A stretch of 24,835 nucleotides of DNA from a virus. The position numbers and the translations under genes are program-made. The notes under the pieces were generated by a model that saw only the letters and a program-made list of their open reading frames with translations, searched no databases and was not told where the DNA came from. The first letter of the stretch is position 1. The number at the start of each line of letters is the position of its first letter. Positions 1,773 through 21,454 of the stretch are shown here, piece after piece. Where the stretch lies: IMG/VR virus record IMGVR_UViG_3300029787_000308, positions 1 to 24,835 of that record; one strand, 5' to 3'.

Positions 1773-4724
1773 TTAAGCAGATTCTACATATCCGTAGCCC
1801 TTTGCTACATAGTCGAAACTTCTACTTACTACACTACCACTAGAATTTTTAAACTTTATAGTAAATCCTGTTGCTGACTTAGATGTCAGTTCATAAAAAT
1901 CACCTGTTGCAAGACTTTGAGCTGATATTCCTAGACCCTGTAATTCTTTGAATGCAGGTGAGAATGTAATTACTTTGCCACTACTAGCCGTACCTGATGC
2001 TACATCATCTTCTGCTGTTGTTCTATCAGGCATATCCACACTTGCTGAAAGTTCATAGATAGCAGGTGTTGCTGTATCAATATCACAAGTAAGTTTTACT
2101 CTGAGTTTTATGTGACTAGCTGTGTAATCTCCCAATACATAATTTCTATAATCATTATAATTCGTACCATCAGTCGATGTTGCAATTAACAGCTCGACAT
2201 TGACATCATTGTGCTCTGTATATCCACCATCAAAATTACCAGTTTGTGAATCGAATGTTCCTAAAAAACTATCGAATAAACTTGCAGTATCAAACCTGTT
2301 GTATTTACAAGTAAAGGTCACTCTGCTGTTATAAATTCCTGATAAATCGAATATAGGAAAATCATACACACCCTCAGAGTTAAATGTAGCAGTACCACCT
2401 GAATCAAAGTTACCTGTCATGTCATCAAAGTTTCCTGAAGCATCATCAAACAAAACACCCTCGATGAGTTGTAAATATTTTACAGTATCTCTCGTGACAA
2501 CTTCTAAATCAGTTCCCATAGTTCCACCAGTATAATTTGGTGACTGAGTAGATGTGGCGACAACATTAAAATCTCTACTAATAGAATTTTTTATAATTAC
2601 AGTCTTTGCTGAGTTCTCACTCTCTAGCCCTAACACATCAATAGCTTTAATCATGTAAGTTCCTGTCTGTGCAGGTAGTGTTATCACATTTGCAGGTTTA
2701 CCAATCTTCTTGGCTACTATCAAGCCCTCTTCAAATTTTTGACTTGTTGTTAAGGGTGAGTGTCTGATTATGTAATGTGATAAATCCAAATCAGAAACAG
2801 GTGTCCAATTAAGATGGACAATATCTCCGACAACGTTACTAGAGAAATTAGTTACATCAGCAGGAGGTGCTGTTTTACCAATGACTTCGTGAGTAGTTGT
2901 AGTGAATGAGCTGTGAACATTAAAAGCATTTATAGACCTTGCACGAACATTATATATTGCTCCATCTTGTGCGTTAACTAATTCAAATATATTACCTTTG
3001 CTTCTACCAAGAGTTACGAATTCACTTCCTGCTTCGTTAGTGTTTTGTGCTTCTACTTCGAATTCATTTGTTGTTCCTTGACCACTTGCACATGTTACTT
3101 TCATTATTGTTATTGGAGTTTCTGCGTAAATTCTTAATTCGTCTGTTACAGTAATAGCAGGTGGTGAAACATCTTCAGGTGTAGGTAAAGTTGTATTGTC
3201 TAATGCAAATGCTGTTTCCTCTGCATTCCAATCATAAACTGTTGAAGCCGTTTCATTTAATATTATAGCTATTCCTAATTCACCTCCCTCGTTACTAAAA
3301 CTCCATTCAGCTACTTCAAAAACTTTACTAGAAAATCCAAGTCTCGTATTAGTTACATTGACTGTATCTCCAACTTGTAATCTAAAACCTGTCATTTTTA
3401 TTCTTGCACTTAAAACAATTTGTTGTCTATTTTTAAACAATGCAATCTTAGCAATACGTTGTGCAGTAGCACTTGATGATGTATAAGGTAAATCAATATC
3501 AGCAAATATAACTTCACCATCTGCATCAGAGAATGTACTGCTCGTTACCATTGGATAATCTGATGGTTGATATGAAGTTTCAGGTGAAGTAAATATTCCC
3601 TTTACTGTATTGAATAAGTCTTTTCTAGACTTCTTGGATTCTATTGCAATTTGAGAAATGAAATCATCATCAGTCAAAGTAATGCTTGGTGATACATATT
3701 GTCCACCTCTTAAAGTGAACTTGCCGTTAGTGTAAGTCAAGATACCTGCACAACTTGTTAATAAATCATCAAGAGTTTGCATCGGTGATATATCACTATA
3801 AACAATACCGTTACATGTATATCTTTTCTCTGTACCACCTCCAGATAAAGTTACATTCTCATCACATAAATTTGCCATTGTGGTAAATGATGTTGTATCA
3901 ATATTGTCTCTACTTATTCCTAAACCGATTCTTGTGTCAGTAAGATAATCGAAAATACATAAAGCAGGGTTACTCGAAAATGCAGTCGAGCCATCTCTAA
4001 AATCAAATATTTTTTTACCTTTGATTTCTGCACTAACATTTGGAATTCCATTTGGATAAGTATCTGCATCATATTCTAATTGTAGATACATATATGCTAT
4101 CCCTCTAAGTCTATGAGCTGATGTCCACTTGCTTACTAACCCTACTAAATCTGCATCTGCTAATTGATTATCACCACCTGTATGAAGTTTGATTTTATTA
4201 CCATAAGAAAAACCGATGCCATATGGTGCATTATTTATTATATTTCTTGAATTTTGAGCATACTTACTTGGTGCTGTTATGTAATATCTAAAAATACCGT
4301 TGGCATCATTTATTGTTTGTCCAGATAAGTTTGTTTGTCTTGCTAAAGTTAATGCTTCATCGTTAAAATATATTGTGTCGAATGACTGTATTTCATGCGA
4401 TGCAACTTGAATAAGCAAATGTAATTGTTGGTTATTATCAGTAGTGTCCATAAACAATATAGACCCTGATTTTTTTGTAGACCCATAAACAATTTCCCTA
4501 TTCGTAATAGGTTGTTTCACCATCAAACTTCTGTTTGTTGCTTGTGCAGAATAAGATTGATTACCTAATGAAGCGATTTTTGGTTTCGGTGCAAGTGCAA
4601 TACCTGTCGCTATCATCGCTGACCCTGTAGCTACTGTAGCCCAAAATCCTGCTGTACCCCATACTGCACCTCCAGTAATAGCTGTGCCTACGACCACCAA
4701 TGCTGTTGATACAATACTACCCAT
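1773..4724 (-). CDS. J-like tail tip / host-specificity protein
   Basis: This 983-residue protein has the size and layout of phage tail-tip attachment proteins (lambda J-like). Residues 4-48 are strongly hydrophobic and Gly/Ala-rich, as in many marine J-like proteins. The central part (roughly 80-500) has the beta-rich character of putative phage tail proteins, including NREIVYGSTKKSGSILF and FRLQVGDTVNVTNTRLGF. A fibronectin-III-like segment follows at about 615-710 (PADVTNFSSNVVGDIVHLNW). Residues 758-777 and 817-838 hold two related repeats built on FDxxTGNFD. The protein probably forms the distal tail tip that contacts the host. It overlaps the upstream HlyC-like gene by 8 bases, implying coupled translation. 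Confidence 0.82.
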   Translation of the reverse strand: MGSIVSTALVVVGTAITGGAVWGTAGFWATVATGSAMIATGIALAPKPKIASLGNQSYSAQATNRSLMVKQPITNREIVYGSTKKSGSILFMDTTDNNQQLHLLIQVASHEIQSFDTIYFNDEALTLARQTNLSGQTINDANGIFRYYITAPSKYAQNSRNIINNAPYGIGFSYGNKIKLHTGGDNQLADADLVGLVSKWTSAHRLRGIAYMYLQLEYDADTYPNGIPNVSAEIKGKKIFDFRDGSTAFSSNPALCIFDYLTDTRIGLGISRDNIDTTSFTTMANLCDENVTLSGGGTEKRYTCNGIVYSDISPMQTLDDLLTSCAGILTYTNGKFTLRGGQYVSPSITLTDDDFISQIAIESKKSRKDLFNTVKGIFTSPETSYQPSDYPMVTSSTFSDADGEVIFADIDLPYTSSSATAQRIAKIALFKNRQQIVLSARIKMTGFRLQVGDTVNVTNTRLGFSSKVFEVAEWSFSNEGGELGIAIILNETASTVYDWNAEETAFALDNTTLPTPEDVSPPAITVTDELRIYAETPITIMKVTCASGQGTTNEFEVEAQNTNEAGSEFVTLGRSKGNIFELVNAQDGAIYNVRARSINAFNVHSSFTTTTHEVIGKTAPPADVTNFSSNVVGDIVHLNWTPVSDLDLSHYIIRHSPLTTSQKFEEGLIVAKKIGKPANVITLPAQTGTYMIKAIDVLGLESENSAKTVIIKNSISRDFNVVATSTQSPNYTGGTMGTDLEVVTRDTVKYLQLIEGVLFDDASGNFDDMTGNFDSGGTATFNSEGVYDFPIFDLSGIYNSRVTFTCKYNRFDTASLFDSFLGTFDSQTGNFDGGYTEHNDVNVELLIATSTDGTNYNDYRNYVLGDYTASHIKLRVKLTCDIDTATPAIYELSASVDMPDRTTAEDDVASGTASSGKVITFSPAFKELQGLGISAQSLATGDFYELTSKSATGFTIKFKNSSGSVVSRSFDYVAKGYGYVESA

Positions 4725-5145
4725 AAAATGCCTTTGTTGATTGAGAAGATATTCTATATATGTTCAAGTCGTTATCCATTCTTATATAATTAACTCGTTG
4801 GTTTGTACCTAATTCTTTTGTAAAGTGATTCTTAGTCCATCTCATTATAGATTGTATTCCATCAATAGCCAATACATCAACCAACCAAACGATATTACCA
4901 CAATTCCAGTCTAGGACTTCACCTGTTTTTTTGAAATGCTCTGAGTTTTTTTCATCCATATAACTCCAAGAAATAAAACCAGTAACTTTTTTGTCGGTAT
5001 AAAATACCTTACATTGTTTGTTATTGAATGTTGTAAGCAGGTAAAAAAATAACTGCTCGTTGAGAATATATTTATATTTATCGAATGACTTATATAATGC
5101 TATGACCTTATAAATGTCATCGAACTTCTTGGAAAGAATATTCAT
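4717..5145 (-). CDS. HlyC-like (RTX toxin-activating) lysine acyltransferase homologue
   Basis: This 142-residue protein aligns, from memory of E. coli HlyC, without gaps over a 45-residue stretch ending in GFISW (HlyC AYCSW). It then matches DWNCGNIVWLVDVLAIDG against HlyC DWTSGDRKWFIDWIAPFGD and INYIR-like NYIRMD against AIRVD. HlyC-family enzymes use acyl-ACP to fatty-acylate internal lysines of RTX toxins. The catalytic Asp92 of HlyC corresponds to Asp90 here, but the position of catalytic His23 is Tyr24. The protein may therefore be inactive, use a different base, or serve another purpose. No RTX toxin gene is visible in the window. The gene sits inside the tail operon between a tail-hub protein and the J-like tip and overlaps the latter. 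AGGAAG lies 7 bases before the ATG. Family membership is likely; function is open. Confidence 0.72.
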   Translation of the reverse strand: MNILSKKFDDIYKVIALYKSFDKYKYILNEQLFFYLLTTFNNKQCKVFYTDKKVTGFISWSYMDEKNSEHFKKTGEVLDWNCGNIVWLVDVLAIDGIQSIMRWTKNHFTKELGTNQRVNYIRMDNDLNIYRISSQSTKAFYG

Positions 5146-12273: not shown

Positions 12274-14496
12274 CTATTTTTTTGAAGATAAAGGATGTGC
12301 AGATGGTAACAAGTCTAAATCAAATTTACCACCTCTAAACTTTCCTGTTCTTACTGCGACAAGAAAAGCATTTACTCTTGCATATGCCCATCTATCTTCA
12401 CCACCACTAGCACGAACACTTGGTCGTACAGATTGTGGGTTTGTTCTGTATGCACCAATGCCACGTCTAAAGACTGCTGACAACATTCCGAGTGTTACTC
12501 GTTTACCTTTTTGGTCTCCATACTTTTCATTATGTTTATCTACTTTACCTTGTAATCCTTTTTTAACACTAGCACTAACACTTGGTGCTTTGGTCTCATC
12601 TTCTTCGTCATCGTGATATGATTTAAGTTCGATACATGCTTCTTCAAAATATTCTACTTCCTCGTCAGACTTTTCTCGTTCACGCATAATCTGATTACGT
12701 TTAGTTTTAGCCCAACTAAATCCTGCATCACCACCCCACAATGCCCAAGCAATTCTACCTGCTGATGGATAACCATCCTCACCTCTGTCAAATCCTTGTC
12801 CTTGCTTATCTACTTCATGTCTAGAGAAGAATGAATACATTCTTAATACTGTGTTAGGTGACAATCTTGTTTTGTTTGCAATGTCTCTTGCTCTTGCTAC
12901 ACCAACACCTGTTCCACCTCTGTTAAATTCTTTTCTCCATTCGAGTCCTCGTTTAGCTTCGCTTACCATTCCGTCTGATGGTGTTAAGTTTAAATCGTCT
13001 AATGCTTTTCTATTGTTGATTGCTTGTTCGTATTCGGCATGACTTCTGCATGGCATATAAACTGTCTGTCCGTCTTTGTCTTGTGAGTGCGTACCGATGC
13101 AACCTATTTCGTCTGCTCTGTCTATTGCTTCTTCTTCTGTTGTGTAGGTATCTACATCAACACTTTCCTTTGTACCATAAGCCATGTCGTAAAGTTTTTC
13201 TCTACCCTCTGCATCTACAGGATTATCATTATCTTCTTCGCTTTCGTTTTCTACAGCTTCACCAATTGGAAATAAGTTAGATGCAATGTAAAGTTCATCT
13301 GCACCATCTATTGGGTCAAGTCCTAGTTTCTCTCTAGCTTCATTCCTTGTAAGTATTCCTGCTGTAACTGCACCTTGAACATTAGTGTAAGTTTGTTTTG
13401 TTTTTTCAGCCATAGCAGGTATAGAGTTGATATCATACTGAATATGAATATCTCCGTTATACAAAGGTGCTAAGTATTCGTTTAAATCTGATTCTACTCT
13501 TTTTAGTAGTGGTATTATTGTTTCTTCGTATAGAGCAAGTTTTGCAGTTTCCATATTAGAATATGTATTCGCTTCAGGAATCCCAATCAACTGTGCAGGT
13601 ACACCGAAACACAATGCAATCTCTCTTGCTGATAAGTTAAGTAATTCTAAGAAGTCCATGTCCTTTGGATTAAGTCCGAGTTGTTGGTAAGAGAAGTTAC
13701 CCTCTAACAACATTGGTCGTCCTGAGTTATGACTACCTTGAAATCTAAATTCTAAATCTTCCAACAACCTTGCTCTCTGCTCATCCGTGAGCTCAGTACT
13801 CATTCCTGTTTCATCAGTCGGCTCAAATTTAAGCATTCCTGATGGAGTACATCCATTTTTTAAAAGAGCAACGTTGTGTAATCCTGCGAGGTTATGTTGG
13901 TCGATGTTGTATGCACTAGCCATGATAGGTGATAGTCCATAGAAGTCATCTAACGGACTCCATAGTTTTGTTTGTTTAATTTGACTCATACCTGTTGTTG
14001 GGTCGACTGGATATGATTTTAAAACTCTACCATCTACAACGTATTCATAAGCATCAGGTATCATTGACTCACCTGCGTTAACTCTCATTCTGTCAGGTCT
14101 TAGTAAATATAATTCTCTTGCAGGTCTTAGTGCATCTGAATCTCTTACGATGTAAGTGTTACCTGAAATCATTAAGTAAGAATAAAGTGATGAGAAGAAT
14201 TCAACACCTGATTGTAAAGGGTTAGGTCTGTTAAGTAATGATATTAGTTCGTGGTTTTCTAAAAGATTATCACCATCATATATGTCTATCTTAACTGCTG
14301 ATGCTGAATTAGCAATTAACTGAATGCATCTGTGGACAATTGCGTTTTCTTCGTAGCCCTCTTTTGCATAGTCTTTATATTTTCTATTAGACTTAGATGC
14401 ATATGCGTTCAACTTATTGAACATTACTTTTGGTGCTTCTTTTCTTTGTGTGACTTGTTGTACTTCTTTTTTAAAAAATCTATCAAATATTCCCAT
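12274..14496 (-). CDS. Portal protein with three extra C-terminal domains
   Basis: This 740-residue protein is far longer than HK97-type portals (about 400). Residues 1 to ~415 are the portal core: NAIVHRCIQLIANSAS, LLNRPNPLQSG, SGNTYIVRD, DDFYGLSPI, FGVPAQLIG, TYSNMETAK, and ITRNEAREKLGL-like ILTRNEAREKLGLDPIDG. Then come a small module at ~450-492 with Cys466 and Cys483 (IGCIGTHS, YMPCRSHAEY), a module at ~505-608 ending GRIAWALWGGDAG, and a final one at ~645-740 (RRGIGAYRTNPQSVRPS, AYARVNAFLVAVRTGKFR, DLLPSAHPLSSK) resembling the domain I recall as DUF5824. The extra modules occur as pieces of other phage structural polyproteins. Their roles, possibly scaffolding or internal head protein, are unknown. 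It starts two bases after the terminase stop. Confidence 0.88.
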   Translation of the reverse strand: MGIFDRFFKKEVQQVTQRKEAPKVMFNKLNAYASKSNRKYKDYAKEGYEENAIVHRCIQLIANSASAVKIDIYDGDNLLENHELISLLNRPNPLQSGVEFFSSLYSYLMISGNTYIVRDSDALRPARELYLLRPDRMRVNAGESMIPDAYEYVVDGRVLKSYPVDPTTGMSQIKQTKLWSPLDDFYGLSPIMASAYNIDQHNLAGLHNVALLKNGCTPSGMLKFEPTDETGMSTELTDEQRARLLEDLEFRFQGSHNSGRPMLLEGNFSYQQLGLNPKDMDFLELLNLSAREIALCFGVPAQLIGIPEANTYSNMETAKLALYEETIIPLLKRVESDLNEYLAPLYNGDIHIQYDINSIPAMAEKTKQTYTNVQGAVTAGILTRNEAREKLGLDPIDGADELYIASNLFPIGEAVENESEEDNDNPVDAEGREKLYDMAYGTKESVDVDTYTTEEEAIDRADEIGCIGTHSQDKDGQTVYMPCRSHAEYEQAINNRKALDDLNLTPSDGMVSEAKRGLEWRKEFNRGGTGVGVARARDIANKTRLSPNTVLRMYSFFSRHEVDKQGQGFDRGEDGYPSAGRIAWALWGGDAGFSWAKTKRNQIMREREKSDEEVEYFEEACIELKSYHDDEEDETKAPSVSASVKKGLQGKVDKHNEKYGDQKGKRVTLGMLSAVFRRGIGAYRTNPQSVRPSVRASGGEDRWAYARVNAFLVAVRTGKFRGGKFDLDLLPSAHPLSSKK

Positions 14497-14497
14497 A

Positions 14498-15775
14498 TTA
14501 ACTTATCCTGAAAACTGCTTTACCTGAGTTCTGTAAACTTGTAATTCCAAACACCAATGCATCTAACCTATCAGGAGATGATACACTATTTCCTGTATAT
14601 TGGCACATTTGTTCTTCTAAGTCTTTAAAAAAACCTACGTGGTGTACCTTTCCTTGTTCGTACAAACTTGATACGGGCTCGGCTCTTAGCATTTTGCCTT
14701 TGCTACTTCGTATTGCTCTGTAAGGTATTTGTCCATCTTGTACTCTCAACAATCTCTCAATTAAATCACCACCGTTGTTTACTTCAGCAGTTATGTAGTT
14801 AGCTTCATACTCGTAATATAACCCAATAGCTTTTTTAATCCAATCATCAGGTGTATATGTACCACTTCTGTCATCTAGTATGTAGTAGTGATTATCTTCA
14901 CCTCTACCAACAACTATGATTCCTGTCTCATCTGAATTAGCATTGCTTGTTACAGCAGGGTCGACTGCGATAACTATCTTACTTAGTTGTGGTTGTTGTT
15001 TTACTCTTGCGTTATCAATCAAATCTCTTTTGAATAAACTACCCTCGATATCTTCTAATATCTCTGCGTAGAGTTCTTGTCTACCTAGTCTAGTGTTTTC
15101 GTATCTATCTTTTAACATTGAGATTGTAGATTTAGCAAGGTTATCTTCGTTCTCAAATGTTGACCCTGTTATTTTCTTTACATCTTTTCTCTCGAACAAT
15201 TCTTTAATGAGTGGTAATGGTCTTGGTGTTGTTGTAATTATGCACTTAGGGTTTTCGCCTAGACGTAAAGCCATCATTAGGTTATCAAAGGTTTCTCTGT
15301 ATCTCCATGATGCAACCTCATCGCACCATACTCTGTGAAAGTTTTGTCCACGAATTCTGTCTGCTTCTATCGCAGGAAAGCCAATAATCTTAGAGCCGTT
15401 GTGAAATGTAATCTCTGATGCAGATTTGTTATAACCTTTGTATGCTAGTAAGTCTTTATCAATGATGCTTATGATTCCTGATTCACCTTGAAAGCAAACC
15501 TTAGATAAGTCTGAGTAAGTTGGTGCAACTACTCCACACATTACGTTGGGTTTCTTTAGACAATAAGTAATCATGTCCATCGCACCAGTCAAAGTCTTTC
15601 CCCATCCACGACCTGCAAGAAACATGTAGATGTTATGTTCGTCATCATCACGGATGACTTGCTTTGGTCTAGACTTTTTATGCCACCATTCAGTCAGAAG
15701 TAGAGTTGCTTTCCTCTGCTTCGATTGCAGAGTCTCGAATGTTTTCGAGTAGTCTCTCAAATTGTCTTTCGTCAT
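14498..15775 (-). CDS. terL: Terminase large subunit
   Basis: This 425-residue DNA-packaging motor has a Walker A AGRGWGKT (54-61), a Walker B ending in acidic residues in HRVWCDEVA (Asp152-Glu153), and a coupling motif TTTPRP (181-186). The C-terminal RNase H-fold nuclease has Asp272 (IAVDPAV), Glu331 (ITAEVNNGG) and Asp402/405 (SPDRLDALV). It translocates DNA into the prohead through the portal and cuts the concatemer. The start overlaps the small-subunit gene by 86 bases, longer than usual, and lacks a strong ribosome-binding site, so translation may be coupled. Confidence 0.95.
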   Translation of the reverse strand: MTKDNLRDYSKTFETLQSKQRKATLLLTEWWHKKSRPKQVIRDDDEHNIYMFLAGRGWGKTLTGAMDMITYCLKKPNVMCGVVAPTYSDLSKVCFQGESGIISIIDKDLLAYKGYNKSASEITFHNGSKIIGFPAIEADRIRGQNFHRVWCDEVASWRYRETFDNLMMALRLGENPKCIITTTPRPLPLIKELFERKDVKKITGSTFENEDNLAKSTISMLKDRYENTRLGRQELYAEILEDIEGSLFKRDLIDNARVKQQPQLSKIVIAVDPAVTSNANSDETGIIVVGRGEDNHYYILDDRSGTYTPDDWIKKAIGLYYEYEANYITAEVNNGGDLIERLLRVQDGQIPYRAIRSSKGKMLRAEPVSSLYEQGKVHHVGFFKDLEEQMCQYTGNSVSSPDRLDALVFGITSLQNSGKAVFRIS

Positions 15776-16073
15776 TTTCTGTATTGATAACCTCTAGTGT
15801 GTTTGTATCTTTCCAACCTGCTTGACATTTCAACCAAAAGATTCCTGCTGTTACAGCTCCCTGTCCATCGCCTGTTGCAATCCTAAATAAGTTTCTTGAT
15901 ACAGATGCGTTTGCTTCTGCTTTACCTTGCATAAGTTCTTGTGAATAATATTTTGTTAATGAGTTCCTTGATATCTCTAGGATAGAACACATTTGTTCTT
16001 GCGTTATTCCTAACCCTGATAAGTTCTTTACCATCTTACTCGTATCTGGTGACTTTGTTATTATCTTTGGCAT
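15690..16073 (-). CDS. terS: Terminase small subunit (putative)
   Basis: In this 127-residue protein an HTH-like segment at about 18-45 (LGITQEQMCSILEISRNSLTKYY) is followed by a helical region (AEANASVSRNLFRIATGDGQGAV) and an acidic C-terminus (ENIRDSAIEAEESNSTSD). That matches small terminase subunits, which recognise the packaging site and hand DNA to TerL. It lies directly before terL. No Shine-Dalgarno sequence precedes the ATG. A -10-like element ends only 8 bases upstream, so the message may be leaderless. Two tandem-repeat arrays lie just upstream and could be its binding site. Confidence 0.75.
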   Translation of the reverse strand: MPKIITKSPDTSKMVKNLSGLGITQEQMCSILEISRNSLTKYYSQELMQGKAEANASVSRNLFRIATGDGQGAVTAGIFWLKCQAGWKDTNTLEVINTENDERQFERLLENIRDSAIEAEESNSTSD

Positions 16074-16158: not shown

Positions 16159-16202
16159 CATGAGTTAAACATGAGACCATCATGAGCTACTCCTGAGTAG
16201 TT
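16159..16202. repeat. Four iterons with 11-bp spacing next to the terS repeats
   Basis: CATGAG occurs at 16159, 16170 and 16181, and CCTGAG at 16192, at an exact 11-bp interval. The five-base spacers differ in sequence, so the hexamer is the conserved part. The first copy sits in the palindrome CTCATGAG. The last overlaps the 3' end of the ParB-like gene and a small inverted repeat CTACTC/GAGTAG (16187-16200). This array lies 12 bases from the 10-bp repeats and probably forms part of the same protein-binding site. Confidence 0.75.
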
Positions 16203-16702
16203 GGATACCATGCTTTGGAATACTTGTAGTCTTTTATATTCTTCATTTTGAACACGGACTCTTGATACAATAAATCAATCTCTTTGCTAGATGCACCTAG
16301 TTCTTTTGCAATGTCTTTGTTATGCCACTTATGTTTATCAATCAACTCTCGTATCATTTCAGACATCCTAAGTGCTACATGACTTCCCTTTGCTCTGTTC
16401 ATGCGTACTGTAAGTATCATTGCTTTATCTCTTGGTATATCAAACACAACACAAGGTACTAAGCCACCATAGATTTCTTTTAGTTTCTTAGATTGTTTAC
16501 TTAACATTGTTCTATGAAATCCATCGATGATAATGTTTTCTGTAGATACAATAACTGGTTGTACCCATCCTACTGTTAAGATATTAAGTTCTAATGCTCT
16601 TAGTTCGGCATTCATTACAACGTTAGGATTGTAGTCGTTAGCTACAAGAACGTTTGCATCAATCCATTTTATTTGTTCTATCGGCTCTTTTTTCATAAAC
16701 AT
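16187..16702 (-). CDS. IbrB-like ParB/sulfiredoxin-fold protein (DGFHR type)
   Basis: I chose the ATG at 16702 (171 residues). A GTG at 16741 would add 13 residues; neither has a clear Shine-Dalgarno sequence. The fold signature is a ParB-N/Srx domain: YNPN near the start, then GWVQPVIV, and IIDGFHRTMLS, where DGFHR replaces the GGHRR of true ParB. It then has MNRAKGSHVALRMSEMI and an HTH-like KDIAKELGASSKEIDLL. This matches IbrB, the partner of IbrA, and its DGFHR recalls the DGQHR of DndB. The gene overlaps the 3' end of the PAPS-reductase-like gene by 44 bases, supporting a functional pair. Whether it binds DNA, nucleotides or acts catalytically is unknown. Confidence 0.8.
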   Translation of the reverse strand: MFMKKEPIEQIKWIDANVLVANDYNPNVVMNAELRALELNILTVGWVQPVIVSTENIIIDGFHRTMLSKQSKKLKEIYGGLVPCVVFDIPRDKAMILTVRMNRAKGSHVALRMSEMIRELIDKHKWHNKDIAKELGASSKEIDLLYQESVFKMKNIKDYKYSKAWYPTTQE

Positions 16703-17741
16703 ATTTGTTGATTGGGTATATTTTTCTTTTGTACTCACCACTCATAAAAAATGTAAGTAGATGATAAATCGGATATGCATCAGGACTTTTCCTGTGTGCA
16801 ACAACTGCTTGTTTAAATCTTTCGTATGCTAAATTCTTTTGTCTCGGCTCAGTAATGTAATCTTTTATGTAATCTAAAATTGTTTGTAAGTCTTGACCGT
16901 ACTTTTCTTTTATTATTTCTTGGTTGTACTCTGCATAGTATTTGTCTTGTATAATCATTTCAGGAAACAAGTCTACTACTTGCTGATAAAGTAGAGGGTC
17001 TCTTGTCTTCAGTTTGAAAAATCTTTTAGATGCTTCGTGGTGGACTGGTGTATCTACTCTAAGGTTTTCTTGATTCCACATCTGTCTATCATATATCGAA
17101 CAATAGTTGATGTCGTTATCGTAAAAGTATTTGAATACATCATCTTCTTGCCAGTCGAATATTGGTTTGCATAGTTTTACTCTGTCTGTACCTTTAGTTG
17201 CATTGATATAGTTCTCATTTAACTTTTCCATACACGAGCCATATCTTCTCAATGATTCACTTGCTCTTATGCCGTTTACGAATGCTAATTTACCTTTGTA
17301 AAAAGATGCAGTAAAAGCATCCATAGTAGTTCTGTCGAATACATGTTTATCAGTTATTGCATGTGTTGGCATCGGTCTCATGTGTTCTCTGTCAGCATCC
17401 CATTGTATATAGCTTTGCGTTTGACCTAAGACATATTTTGTTGCGTAAGTTTGTACGCAGAAATACTTCATATCAACCCAATCTAACTCACGATACTTGT
17501 TAAGAAAGTCTACGACTACATTTGGTATTAGTTCTTGGTCTCTAAATACTACGTTTACTTTTTTATGTCCTCTAGCTTCTGCAACTTCTTTGCAAAGATG
17601 CAATGTGGCTAAACTGTCTTTACCACCACTAAACATAACTACTACAGTATCAAATACATCATAGATATGATTAATTCTTTTTATTGCTTCATCATAAACA
17701 TTAGTATCTATGAATTTTCTAATCTTCTTCTTTAGTGCCAT
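16659..17741 (-). CDS. IbrA-like PAPS-reductase-family ATP pyrophosphatase
   Basis: This 360-residue protein contains the PP-loop SGGKDS (38-43), GIRASESLRRYGS (157-169) and KPIFDWQEDDVFKYF (192-206), the core motifs of PAPS reductase-family proteins. Its length and the C-terminal extension after residue 250 fit the IbrA (DUF3440) group rather than true sulfate-assimilation enzymes, and the C-terminal catalytic Cys motif of those enzymes is absent. Family members adenylate a substrate to activate it, often for sulfur transfer as in DndC. It is flanked and overlapped by a ParB-like gene on each side. In E. coli IbrA/IbrB raise expression of immunoglobulin-binding Eib proteins; the phage role is unknown. 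Confidence 0.88.
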   Translation of the reverse strand: MALKKKIRKFIDTNVYDEAIKRINHIYDVFDTVVVMFSGGKDSLATLHLCKEVAEARGHKKVNVVFRDQELIPNVVVDFLNKYRELDWVDMKYFCVQTYATKYVLGQTQSYIQWDADREHMRPMPTHAITDKHVFDRTTMDAFTASFYKGKLAFVNGIRASESLRRYGSCMEKLNENYINATKGTDRVKLCKPIFDWQEDDVFKYFYDNDINYCSIYDRQMWNQENLRVDTPVHHEASKRFFKLKTRDPLLYQQVVDLFPEMIIQDKYYAEYNQEIIKEKYGQDLQTILDYIKDYITEPRQKNLAYERFKQAVVAHRKSPDAYPIYHLLTFFMSGEYKRKIYPINKYVYEKRADRTNKMD

Positions 17742-18327
17742 TGTCTCTTAGATACTTATCTATTCTGCTTGAATGTGTATCAAGTTCAGGAAACTTTTTC
17801 TTCAAATCTTTTAGAAATGTATACCAAAGTTTTTGTTGTGCATCGCTATCGAATACTAGGTTGTATGCAATTGTTGGGATTTTGAATTCTTCATCACCTT
17901 TGTAGTTGTCATCAGATAAGTCAAACTCTCTAAGGTCAACACCTAAATCTAGTGCAGTAAAACCCATGTCTTGGAGTTCAGGTAATTCAAATCTGTTTCC
18001 TAAGATATCGAAGTCGAATTCACCTGCTATGTTTTTATTCAACCTAATATTAAGTTCATCGAATTCTTCTTCTGAAAGTTTTCTATTAGGATAATAAGTC
18101 TGTACTTCTTGTATGCCTAATTTCTTTAATGCTTTTCTTCTACCGTGTCCACCGATGATAGTAAAGTCTGTGTTTACAACTATCGGCTCTGCTAGTCCAA
18201 ATCTTCTTATTGATTCTTCTAGATGTTTAAGTTTGTCAGGTGTGATTTTTCTAGGATTATTTTCATATTCCTTTAGATGTTCTACCTCACAAATCTGAAT
18301 GCTCCACTCTAGTTTGCTCATGCTCAT
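17719..18327 (-). CDS. ParB-N domain protein (GGHGRRKA type)
   Basis: In this 202-residue protein the N-terminal 100 residues form a standard ParB nuclease-like domain: LKEYENNPRKITPDKLKHLEESIRRFG, then EPIVVN, then IIGGHGRRKALKKLG (57-71), and ELNIRLNKN. The C-terminal half (FDILGNRFELPELQDMGF and the acidic DLSDDNYKGDEEF) resembles the region that links ParB-N domains to DNA methyltransferases in phage fusions, but no methyltransferase follows. It overlaps the PAPS-reductase-like gene by 23 bases. Partitioning is not expected, since no ParA is present. A CTP/ATP-dependent clamp or specificity subunit is possible. Confidence 0.85.
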   Translation of the reverse strand: MSMSKLEWSIQICEVEHLKEYENNPRKITPDKLKHLEESIRRFGLAEPIVVNTDFTIIGGHGRRKALKKLGIQEVQTYYPNRKLSEEEFDELNIRLNKNIAGEFDFDILGNRFELPELQDMGFTALDLGVDLREFDLSDDNYKGDEEFKIPTIAYNLVFDSDAQQKLWYTFLKDLKKKFPELDTHSSRIDKYLRDNGTKEED

Positions 18328-18336
18328 TACTATAAC

Positions 18337-19182
18337 CTATATCCAATCATCATAACACTTTGTTTTGTTATTCCACTTAACAGTAAAACTTCCAATCTGT
18401 CCTTGCACGTCAATCTCTCTTACTTTTGCAATCCTTATGTTAGTTGTTTCAGATTGATAATCTCTAGTTACGATAACAATCAAATCACTTTTATTAGCCC
18501 AATGTGAACTACCACTAATATCATATGCAGACTTAACTTCATAAGTACCATCAGCACCTCTTATCTGCTTGGTAGGATGTGCAACCATGAATGTAACTGT
18601 ATCGGTTTCTCTGTTAAATCTTTTTATCTTAGAGATGAGTAAAGATATGTGTTCGTCCTCACGCAGATTTGCTCTCGCAGGATTGATTTCATTATAAGGG
18701 TCTAGCAACATACCATCAATGTTATAAACTTTATGTACTTGTCTAGCTCGGTCTAATATCCAATCTATGTTAGGACTTTCCTCTTTCATGTCTACAAAGT
18801 AAAAATGTTCATGGATGAATTCAATAGCATCTAACACTTCTTTTTCATTTGCTCTGTTGGTAAAGATATGGTCGAAAGGTTTATGACAAAACTTTTCTAC
18901 AAGTCTTTTTAAATTTACTGCATTAGAATGTTCAGGTGAGAATATCATGTAAGACATTCCGTATTGTCTTGCAGTTCTCATGAGAACATCATAAGTAAAT
19001 GATGATTTACCACAATTAGGTATACCAGTCATACAGATGAATGACGGTTTGATTATTTTAAATAAATCTTTACCACTCGTAAAACCTATATCATATCTCT
19101 TTTGTGATTTACCCTCATACAATTCCCATATACTTTCGGTTAAATCTTTTGCACGGAATACACCGTCAATCTTCTTGCTCAT
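18337..19182 (-). CDS. DnaB/Twinkle-like replicative helicase (helicase domain only)
   Basis: This 281-residue RecA-fold ATPase has a Walker A GIPNCGKSS (53-61), Walker B MLLDPYNE (158-165), a sensor-like VAHPTK (200-205), SGSSHWANKSDLIV (223-236) and the terminal VREIDVQGQIGSFTVKWN (254-271). These match the C-terminal helicase domain of DnaB, Twinkle and T7 gp4. No N-terminal primase or DnaB-type collar is present, and no primase gene is visible in the window. It probably unwinds phage DNA during replication. AGAGG precedes the ATG. It lies between the HTH protein and the ParB trio. Confidence 0.87.
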   Translation of the reverse strand: MSKKIDGVFRAKDLTESIWELYEGKSQKRYDIGFTSGKDLFKIIKPSFICMTGIPNCGKSSFTYDVLMRTARQYGMSYMIFSPEHSNAVNLKRLVEKFCHKPFDHIFTNRANEKEVLDAIEFIHEHFYFVDMKEESPNIDWILDRARQVHKVYNIDGMLLDPYNEINPARANLREDEHISLLISKIKRFNRETDTVTFMVAHPTKQIRGADGTYEVKSAYDISGSSHWANKSDLIVIVTRDYQSETTNIRIAKVREIDVQGQIGSFTVKWNNKTKCYDDWI

Positions 19183-20496: not shown

Positions 20497-20934
20497 ATGT
20501 TCAACAATAAACCTAAAACACAAAATGAAGCACAAGCAGAAGCAGATAAAATCGGTGAGTTCTTAAATGATATGGACAAACCAAAAGTTCAAGATAACGC
20601 AGATGTTATTTATGGAACTTTAAATGCTCCAAGACAAGACTCTAGTGGTAACAATATTGATAAGATTGTTCAAGACGGAAAAATAAAAGACGGCTCTGAA
20701 TATGGAATACATATCAAGTGTGTTGAATCAATGAGTCAAGCAGGTAATCAAGTATTCTATCTCTACCAAAAGATAGGTGCAATTTTTCCTGCTGATAAAG
20801 CAGATAAACCTGACCTAGTCTTACAAGGTGATGCAACAATCAATGGACAAGAAAAGTTCGTACAAGGTTACAATCAAAGTAAAGATGGAGACAATTGGGT
20901 CTCTCTCAGCATCTATCCAAAAAGAAATGACTAG
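20497..20934 (+). CDS. Hypothetical protein, possible ssDNA-binding accessory
   Basis: This 145-residue protein (MFNNKPKTQNEAQAEADKIG) has an acidic N-terminal helix and a beta-rich remainder (EYGIHIKCVESMSQ, QVFYLYQKIGAIFP, NWVSLSIYPKRND). GGAGG precedes the ATG. In recombination operons an OB-fold ssDNA-binding protein often follows the annealase, and the strand-rich pattern fits. No clear SSB motif or acidic tip is seen, so this is context-based. Confidence 0.5.
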   Translation: MFNNKPKTQNEAQAEADKIGEFLNDMDKPKVQDNADVIYGTLNAPRQDSSGNNIDKIVQDGKIKDGSEYGIHIKCVESMSQAGNQVFYLYQKIGAIFPADKADKPDLVLQGDATINGQEKFVQGYNQSKDGDNWVSLSIYPKRND

Positions 20935-21454
20935 ACACTACGGTATGACTTTGATACCTGTATCTAAAAAAGATAGGATGTTAGCACTAACAGAAATCGA
21001 AACAGGTATAGGTATCAAGACAGAAGCAAAGACACTTAACACTTTTGATAAGACAATTAGGAAAGTTGACATGTGGAGAATACCTAAACCATCTAAGATA
21101 TATGACATCTTTGAAAAAACAGGTAAAGAAGCAAACAAACTTTTCAATTACGACATATCAGAAATTGGAGATATACAATATCTAGAGTATAAAGTTGGTG
21201 ATTATTACAATATACATTCTGATGTGGACAACGGAACTGCATCTAAAAGGAAGATAAGTATGTCATGGGTATTGGACTCAGAATATGACGGTGGTGATTT
21301 TAAAATCTATGCTCATGGTGAGGGAATGACGGTCAACATAACACCAAGCAACATATTAGCTTTCACAAGTTGGCATGAACATTCTGTAAGTATCGTCACA
21401 GAAGGTGTCAGACGTTGCTTGGTGTGTTGGTATATTGGAGAACAATGGCGATGA
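20927..21454 (+). CDS. 2OG-Fe(II) oxygenase, prolyl-4-hydroxylase/PiuC-like
   Basis: The likely start is the ATG at 20927 (175 residues), which overlaps the upstream stop; earlier starts would lie deep inside that gene. Iron ligands are visible as HSD (His97, Asp99 in YYNIHSDVDNG) and the distal His in WHEHSVSIV (His152), followed by the 2OG-binding Arg in TEGVRRCLVCW (162/163). The GGDFKIYAHGEG and PSNILAFTSW pieces complete the double-stranded beta-helix. Substrate is unknown: protein hydroxylation, or nucleic-acid repair as in AlkB. It sits in the recombination operon between the SSB-like gene and the exonuclease. Confidence 0.82.
   Translation: MTRHYGMTLIPVSKKDRMLALTEIETGIGIKTEAKTLNTFDKTIRKVDMWRIPKPSKIYDIFEKTGKEANKLFNYDISEIGDIQYLEYKVGDYYNIHSDVDNGTASKRKISMSWVLDSEYDGGDFKIYAHGEGMTVNITPSNILAFTSWHEHSVSIVTEGVRRCLVCWYIGEQWR

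Follow-up and report, generated by a model that had tools for sequence, protein, structure and literature searches.

What does a phosphoadenosine phosphosulfate (PAPS) reductase-like enzyme do when a phage encodes it between two ParB proteins? This question is raised by a three-gene unit, hereafter the trio, in the viral record IMGVR_UViG_3300029787_000308, whose full 24,835 bases are the window analysed here. Open reading frame (ORF) calls confirmed all three minus-strand genes, of which ParB1 comes first, the PP-loop gene second and ParB2 last. We found that this arrangement is conserved throughout a phage clade, is built around an enzyme that has no invariant cysteine, and is accompanied in most relatives by swappable GNAT or methyltransferase-like genes. 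Our preferred reading, whose chances we put at close to even, is that the trio is the central part of a system by which phages modify nucleic acid, most probably their own DNA, through an AMP-forming rather than a sulfur-transfer chemistry.

The Trio Is a Conserved Unit of a Phage Clade

The first gene, ParB1 (17719-18327, 202 residues), encodes a ParB-N domain protein (ParB_N, E 3.5e-7) with the nucleotide-binding-type motif GGHGRRKA (18130-18153). It overlaps by 23 nt the gene of a PP-loop ATP-pyrophosphatase of the PAPS-reductase superfamily (16659-17741, 360 residues; PAPS_reduct, 1.4e-15; phrog_2302, 1e-97), which is related to IbrA without its DUF3440 domain and carries the PP-loop motif SGGKDS (17613-17630). 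This gene in turn overlaps by 83 nt that of ParB2 (16187-16741, 184 residues; phrog_2159, 6e-60), an IbrB-like ParB/Srx protein with a DGFHR motif (16511-16525). The second overlap is 38 nt if ParB2 initiates at an internal ATG (16696), which is the start position of several relatives in the alignment and possibly the real start. The positions, motifs and overlaps agree with an initial annotation of the window, made from the sequence alone.

PP-loop relatives were gathered from viral contigs, phage records and bacterial genomes, and their neighbours were called with hidden Markov models (HMMs) built here; the counts below refer to 70 non-redundant phage loci with sufficient flank and to 79 bacterial chromosomal loci. 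The phage loci, which come from very different phages, those of Mycobacterium, Arthrobacter and Bacillus among them, all contain ParB2, and in 69 of the 70 ParB1 lies upstream of the PP-loop gene. Because the same order recurs in all but one of the phage loci, the trio arrangement is not a product of chance. At the bacterial IbrA-type loci, in contrast, IbrB stands alongside in 77/79 and a ParB1 match was obtained in 1/79. The second ParB is therefore a hallmark of the phage clade and no oddity of the window. The initial annotation was right in seeing a genuine three-gene unit related to IbrA/IbrB, while the second ParB, which it called unusual, is the rule among the phages and nearly absent from chromosomal IbrAB loci; a rare association of this gene with the pair in relatives, which it had named as an outcome that would speak against its proposal, was not what we observed.

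The pairwise distances of the three proteins are correlated across 96 loci (mirror-tree; r 0.80 for PP-loop/ParB2 and 0.75 for PP-loop/ParB1, full range 0.74-0.80), with a maximum r of 0.15 in 500 permutations. This strong correlation indicates that the three proteins have been inherited jointly, although shared phage ancestry contributes to it too. Among annotated phage records, the PP-loop protein (217) and ParB2 (219) have a near-equal distribution, with the same leading host genera.

The PP-Loop Protein Has No Conserved Cysteine

The PP-loop protein of the window is homologous to IbrA over residues 11-296 (hhalign, 99.8%, E 1e-29). DUF3440 gave no match in it at E<=0.1, whereas Enterobacter IbrA scores 7e-34, and the cysteines conserved in the C-terminus of bacterial IbrA are missing from the phage-clade proteins. 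SGGKDS is kept in 114 of 115 phage-clade rows of the alignment, and the residues invariant in 71 diverse phage members include SGGKDS, D68, E70, R159, E162, R166, D196-W197 and D201. No cysteine is invariant across these 71 members, the catalytic ECGxH motif of CysH occurs in 0/115 rows, and two full-length members are entirely free of cysteine. The NCBIfam models for CysH, CysD and DndC all score far under their cut-offs on the window protein (DndC, 26.5 bits against 290.4; cysH, 23 bits against 165). This rules out CysH and DndC as family assignments and, at least for the two cysteine-free members, also a sulfur relay within the protein.

These results bear directly on sulfur chemistry, whether as sulfate assimilation by a true CysH encoded as an auxiliary metabolic gene or as DndC-type DNA phosphorothioation. 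The public annotation as PAPS reductase, the environmental papers that take phage cysH as sulfate assimilation (PMC9301287, PMC5463345) and the weak, sub-cut-off matches to the DndC and CysH models speak for such a role, but the residue pattern and model scores do not fit it and no dndD/dndE or desulfurase partner was seen among the window ORFs examined, so that we regard it as highly improbable. Of the link to DNA or RNA sulfur chemistry suggested in the initial annotation, nucleic-acid modification is kept as the best reading, and sulfur transfer of the DndC or CysH kind is not.

An AlphaFold2 model of the protein, for which the alignment was built without rows from annotated records, is confident (predicted local distance difference test, pLDDT, 91.4). 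Its best Foldseek matches are FAD synthase (8ron) and CysD, a subunit of ATP sulfurylase (1zun), followed by CysH (6vpu, 1sur), FMN adenylyltransferases and TilS; a profile search against solved structures likewise puts CysD and FAD synthase on top. The SGGxDS motif and the adenine-nucleotide alpha-hydrolase-like fold place the protein in the PP-loop ATP-pyrophosphatase superfamily. Since its nearest folds are FAD synthase and CysD, we infer that it would convert ATP to AMP and pyrophosphate; with adenylyltransferases leading the matches, the adenylation half of the "sulfur- or adenylation-based system" named in the initial annotation fits better than the sulfur half. In a close relative (L018, 4992-6040, contig IMGVR_UViG_3300030101_002707; L numbers denote individual loci), the PP-loop gene is broken into two overlapping frames, by either a frameshift or an assembly error.

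An Exchangeable Cassette Accompanies the Core

In most relatives, further genes are inserted between the PP-loop gene and ParB2 or right behind ParB2. Among the 70 phage loci, this slot holds a GNAT-family protein in 36 and an S-adenosylmethionine (SAM)-dependent methyltransferase-like protein (phrog_11826) in 24, but never both (0/70; P = 4e-11 under independence). The GNAT counts rest on the HMMs built in this analysis, and a tblastn search with one GNAT against annotated phages gave no matches, the family being too divergent. A small zinc-binding or HNH-like protein (CxxC...HxEDY...CxxCHxxxH, hereafter Zn/HNH), with a weak similarity to phage endonucleases, is found in 46/70 loci. Eighteen annotated phage records have the methyltransferase-like gene. 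All belong to PP-loop-carrying phage groups, and wherever the annotation shows it, the gene lies beside those of the trio. No GNAT, methyltransferase or Zn/HNH gene was found in the window or its four nearest relatives, records that may be fragments. Hence, the initial annotation's remark that no methyltransferase or nuclease partner is visible holds for the window but fails for most relatives, whose loci extend beyond the cassette of only three genes that it described. A PADLOC scan for known defence systems returned only weak superfamily matches for the trio, and none for the GNAT, methyltransferase-like and Zn/HNH proteins.

In a rapidly built tree of 104 PP-loop proteins, supported by SH-aLRT values only, the GNAT/methyltransferase state changes at least 18 times, and the well-supported branches alone force 13 (GNAT) and 11 (methyltransferase) changes. 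At the DNA level, loci L221 and L224 are 92.6% identical across the trio to the end of ParB2, then carry an unrelated methyltransferase-like or GNAT gene, and then resume at 84.6% identity. On the same loci, the GNAT/methyltransferase state changes 4 times on the Zn/HNH tree, compared to 14 times on the PP-loop tree, 13 on that of ParB2 and 11 on that of ParB1. The tailoring gene has thus been replaced many times beside a trio that is otherwise nearly the same, and the Zn/HNH protein moves along with it. Because of these repeated swaps and this joint movement, the locus reads as a fixed core with an exchangeable two-gene cassette.

The tailoring genes also suit a modification of RNA or protein, in which host or phage tRNA, mRNA, RNA polymerase or another protein would be altered to the phage's benefit and then acylated or methylated. 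The methyltransferase-like proteins resemble O- and N-methyltransferases, the Foldseek matches of the PP-loop model include tRNA-acting enzymes such as TilS and NcsA, and Rac-type phage GNATs acetylate RNA polymerase (PMC7824862). However, two ParB/Srx proteins and an HNH-like partner suggest DNA, as does the association of the trio with replication and packaging genes, and we consider an RNA or protein target rather unlikely.

Other small-molecule enzymes were seen near related genes. In Mycobacterium phage Gaia (gp104; L258, 5308-6207), an ectoine-synthase-type cupin is fused to an IbrB-like ParB directly behind an IbrA-type gene, which ties another such enzyme to the pair. A row of genes in Microbacterium phage Dewdrop (genes 154-159; L259, 1091-6146) encodes three glycosyltransferases, an acetyltransferase, a methyltransferase and a PAPS-family 'adenylyltransferase', possibly a related hypermodification cluster without the trio. 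Eight bacterial loci have an unclassified protein of about 180 residues immediately upstream of IbrA (L172, 5480-6025); it matches nothing in Pfam or PHROG and nothing significantly in the PDB, and is GNAT-like by eye only.

Two ParB Proteins between Helicase and Terminase Genes

The AlphaFold2 model of ParB1 (pLDDT 88.5) matches the ParB-N structures 5k5d, 6sdk and 7bnr in Foldseek. Across the trio set, its nucleotide motif is mostly GHGRx or GHTRx, and a C-terminal helical hairpin is conserved (IxYxLVFDxxxQQxxWxxFLxxLK...T...R). In ParB2, the Pfam ParB_N match is sub-threshold, profile matches to ParB/Noc in the PDB reach 1e-6, and DGFHR is present in 100 of the 103 ParB2 proteins of trio members; its C-terminus combines a helix-turn-helix (HTH)-like region with a conserved KYSKAWYP-type tail. 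By their ParB-N fold and G-x-x-R type nucleotide motif, both proteins belong to the ParB/Srx superfamily.

In the window, the trio sits between a DnaB-like helicase gene directly upstream (18337-19182, minus strand; DnaB_C, 6.4e-11) and terminase genes downstream, the first of which, for the small subunit (15690-16073, minus strand; phrog_309, 7.7e-14), follows ParB2 after a gap of 113 bp; the trio adjoins terminase genes in many relatives as well. This position, just upstream of the packaging genes, would be expected of a gene-expression regulator like IbrA/IbrB, with the ParB proteins binding phage promoters and the PP-loop protein making or sensing a nucleotide ligand to turn on late (packaging) genes. 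The homologies to IbrA and IbrB, the HTH-like region of ParB2 and the public annotation, which reuses the name 'co-activators of prophage gene expression', point the same way. On the other hand, a regulator leaves unexplained why dedicated, mutually exclusive and repeatedly swapped GNAT and methyltransferase genes, with a co-travelling Zn/HNH protein, accompany the trio, and the phage clade is without the DUF3440 part of IbrA; such a role is, in our judgement, unlikely.

The same neighbourhood, together with the closeness of the ParB1 fold to the structures of the CTPases ParB and Noc, might reflect an aid to genome segregation, DNA condensation or packaging, in which clamp-type ParB proteins would feed the adjacent terminase and the PP-loop protein would be a nucleotide-dependent accessory. 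This seems to us distinctly unlikely, as it accounts neither for the invariant PP-loop residues nor for the acyl- and methyl-tailoring genes, and no ParA gene was recognised among the window proteins examined.

Two tandem ParB1-type genes lie upstream of the PP-loop gene in L013, L014, L019, L020, L054 and L069, which comprise mycobacterial-type prophages and others, and a single-sequence scan of viral contigs gave three ParB1-like loci (L249-L251) in which no PP-loop gene was detected within the stretch examined. An SNF2-type helicase occurs with IbrAB both in phages and in bacteria, where a neighbour cluster comprises 17 genes, and occupies the place that ParB1 has in the phage clade, immediately or one gene upstream of IbrA (L181, 3920-5593; L255, 3773-5008; L256, 3240-4451).

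A Candidate Core for Nucleic-Acid Modification

The fixed order of the trio, its co-evolution, the mutual exclusivity of GNAT and methyltransferase, the swapping of the cassette, the residue conservation and the predicted fold together support a modification core. Its parts have precedents: ParB-family partners of DNA modifiers are known in DndB and DpdB (PMC12839542), and the Mom system pairs a GNAT with a nuclease to 'protect and attack', Mom GNATs being fused to nucleases in jumbo phages (PMC7824862). The PP-loop protein, judged by its family, may split ATP to AMP and pyrophosphate and so activate a nucleobase or a donor molecule, which would let a nucleophile-bearing group be installed. 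ParB1 and ParB2 could act as nucleoside triphosphate-driven DNA-binding subunits that deliver the PP-loop protein to its presumed target, a nucleic acid and probably phage DNA. A GNAT or methyltransferase, where there is one, would then add an acyl or methyl cap to this group. DNA without the matching cap may be read or cut by the HNH-like protein, and the frequent cap swapping would be a response to restriction enzymes that recognise the modification.

In its full form, this amounts to an undescribed phage DNA hypermodification, in which a ParB-guided, cysteine-free PP-loop enzyme installs a reactive group after activating a base, exchangeable GNATs or methyltransferases cap it, the HNH-like protein recognises the cap state, and phages switch their DNA chemistry by exchanging a two-gene cassette; we put this forward tentatively, as possible but doubtful.

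Several points weigh against a modification core. The main weakness is the target, which could instead be RNA, protein or a small molecule, since such GNATs and methyltransferases can act there too. The chemistry and the substrate of the PP-loop protein are deduced from its family only. The methyltransferase-like protein is nearer to small-molecule and protein (O-/N-) methyltransferases than to DNA methyltransferases, and no similarity of the GNAT to Mu Mom could be detected (hhalign probability 0.3%). ParB genes commonly adjoin phage terminases for unrelated reasons. Phage GNATs may also acetylate host proteins, as the Rac type does RNA polymerase (PMC7824862). Finally, the window's own lineage has the bare trio, without tailoring genes, and so has Gadjet, the mycobacteriophage of cluster B3 that was examined; because the window phage carries the bare core, the core alone would seem to do something useful.

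Relation to Known Systems

The closest known system is IbrA/IbrB of E. coli, annotated in K-12 as ybdN-ybdM, which shares the order of a PP-loop/PAPS-reductase protein followed by an IbrB-type ParB, usually overlapping. The phage clade differs in lacking DUF3440 with its conserved C-terminal cysteines, in adding ParB1 (69/70 against 1/79 loci) and, usually, in its GNAT or methyltransferase and Zn/HNH cassette. DndC of phosphorothioation systems, and BrxP, are likewise PP-loop enzymes of the PAPS-reductase superfamily, and the Dnd system has a ParB-family partner, DndB; however, the trio protein reaches 26.5 bits, far from the DndC cut-off, and has no conserved cysteines, while ParB2 carries DGFHR rather than DGQHR and no DndB Pfam match. 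DndA/D/E or SspB/C partners were not recognised among the part of the window's ORFs that was scanned, in a record that is a 24.8-kb fragment. With the PAPS reductase CysH, encoded by the viral auxiliary metabolic gene 'cysH', the PP-loop protein shares superfamily and fold (6vpu, 1sur) but not the catalytic ECGxH, which is missing from all 115 phage-clade rows.

In type IV-B CRISPR, the CysH-related PP-loop protein CasCysH lacks the catalytic cysteine, and AMPylation of a substrate or a nucleic acid has been proposed for it (PMC8175902). The same argument for cysteine-less adenylation may apply to the trio, which has no Csf genes and whose partners are ParB proteins and a GNAT or methyltransferase. 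Mom of phage Mu and the Mom-REase fusions of jumbo phages are alike by working analogy only, in that phage DNA modification there too combines a tailoring enzyme of GNAT fold with a neighbouring nuclease (PMC7824862); the trio-associated GNAT is not detectably similar to Mu Mom, and Mom is not known to need a PP-loop/ParB core. In the Dpd system, the ParB-like ATPase DpdB serves the base-modifying tRNA-guanine transglycosylase (TGT) DpdA (PMC12839542). Here, a PP-loop enzyme takes the place of DpdA, and no TGT or deazaguanine genes were recognised in the window.

IbrA/IbrB and phage 'PAPS reductase' genes are already known, and a similarity to DndC has been remarked on in M. abscessus prophages (PMC8092301). 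A paper on the trio with swappable tailoring genes was not found in the open-access literature, with subscription papers and preprints outside the search; nor do the open-access papers found describe a second ParB that is almost always present, the absence of cysteines and DUF3440, or tailoring genes that exclude each other. Viral cysH has been counted among the globally conserved auxiliary metabolic genes and taken as viral control over sulfur cycling (PMC9301287), and environmental surveys apply the general cysH label as sulfate assimilation (PMC9301287, PMC8879888). Many phage 'cysH' calls that belong to the trio family are probably mis-annotated, and since the members of this family are without the catalytic cysteine of CysH, the inference on sulfur cycling is probably wrong at least in part. 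Trio-family genes should not count as sulfate-assimilation genes.

The repeated swapping of acyl- and methyl-transfer genes on a constant core looks like the signature of an arms race. If the proposed modification is real, it would be a new DNA-modification chemistry, and ParB-fold proteins would gain another role as modification subunits. The question is directly testable, as tractable phages have the system: cluster B3 phages of M. smegmatis carry the bare trio, Arthrobacter phages carry it with a methyltransferase (Salgado) or a GNAT (Kovu), and B. subtilis phage 035JT001 carries it with a methyltransferase, while E. coli K-12 has the orphan pair ybdN/ybdM.

Other Genes of the Window

The window otherwise carries siphophage-type genes, namely terminase, portal, prohead protease and tail genes and an ERF annealing protein. 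A small HlyC-like protein (4717-5145, minus strand; PF02794, RTX acyltransferase family, E 1e-12) is encoded within the run of tail genes. The portal protein (12274-14496, minus strand) has a long C-terminal extension that matches DUF3721 and, weakly, DUF5824. On the plus strand (20828-21454), a 2-oxoglutarate- and Fe(II)-dependent oxygenase gene (PF13640) is flanked by ERF/ssDNA-protein genes and a PD-(D/E)XK nuclease gene.

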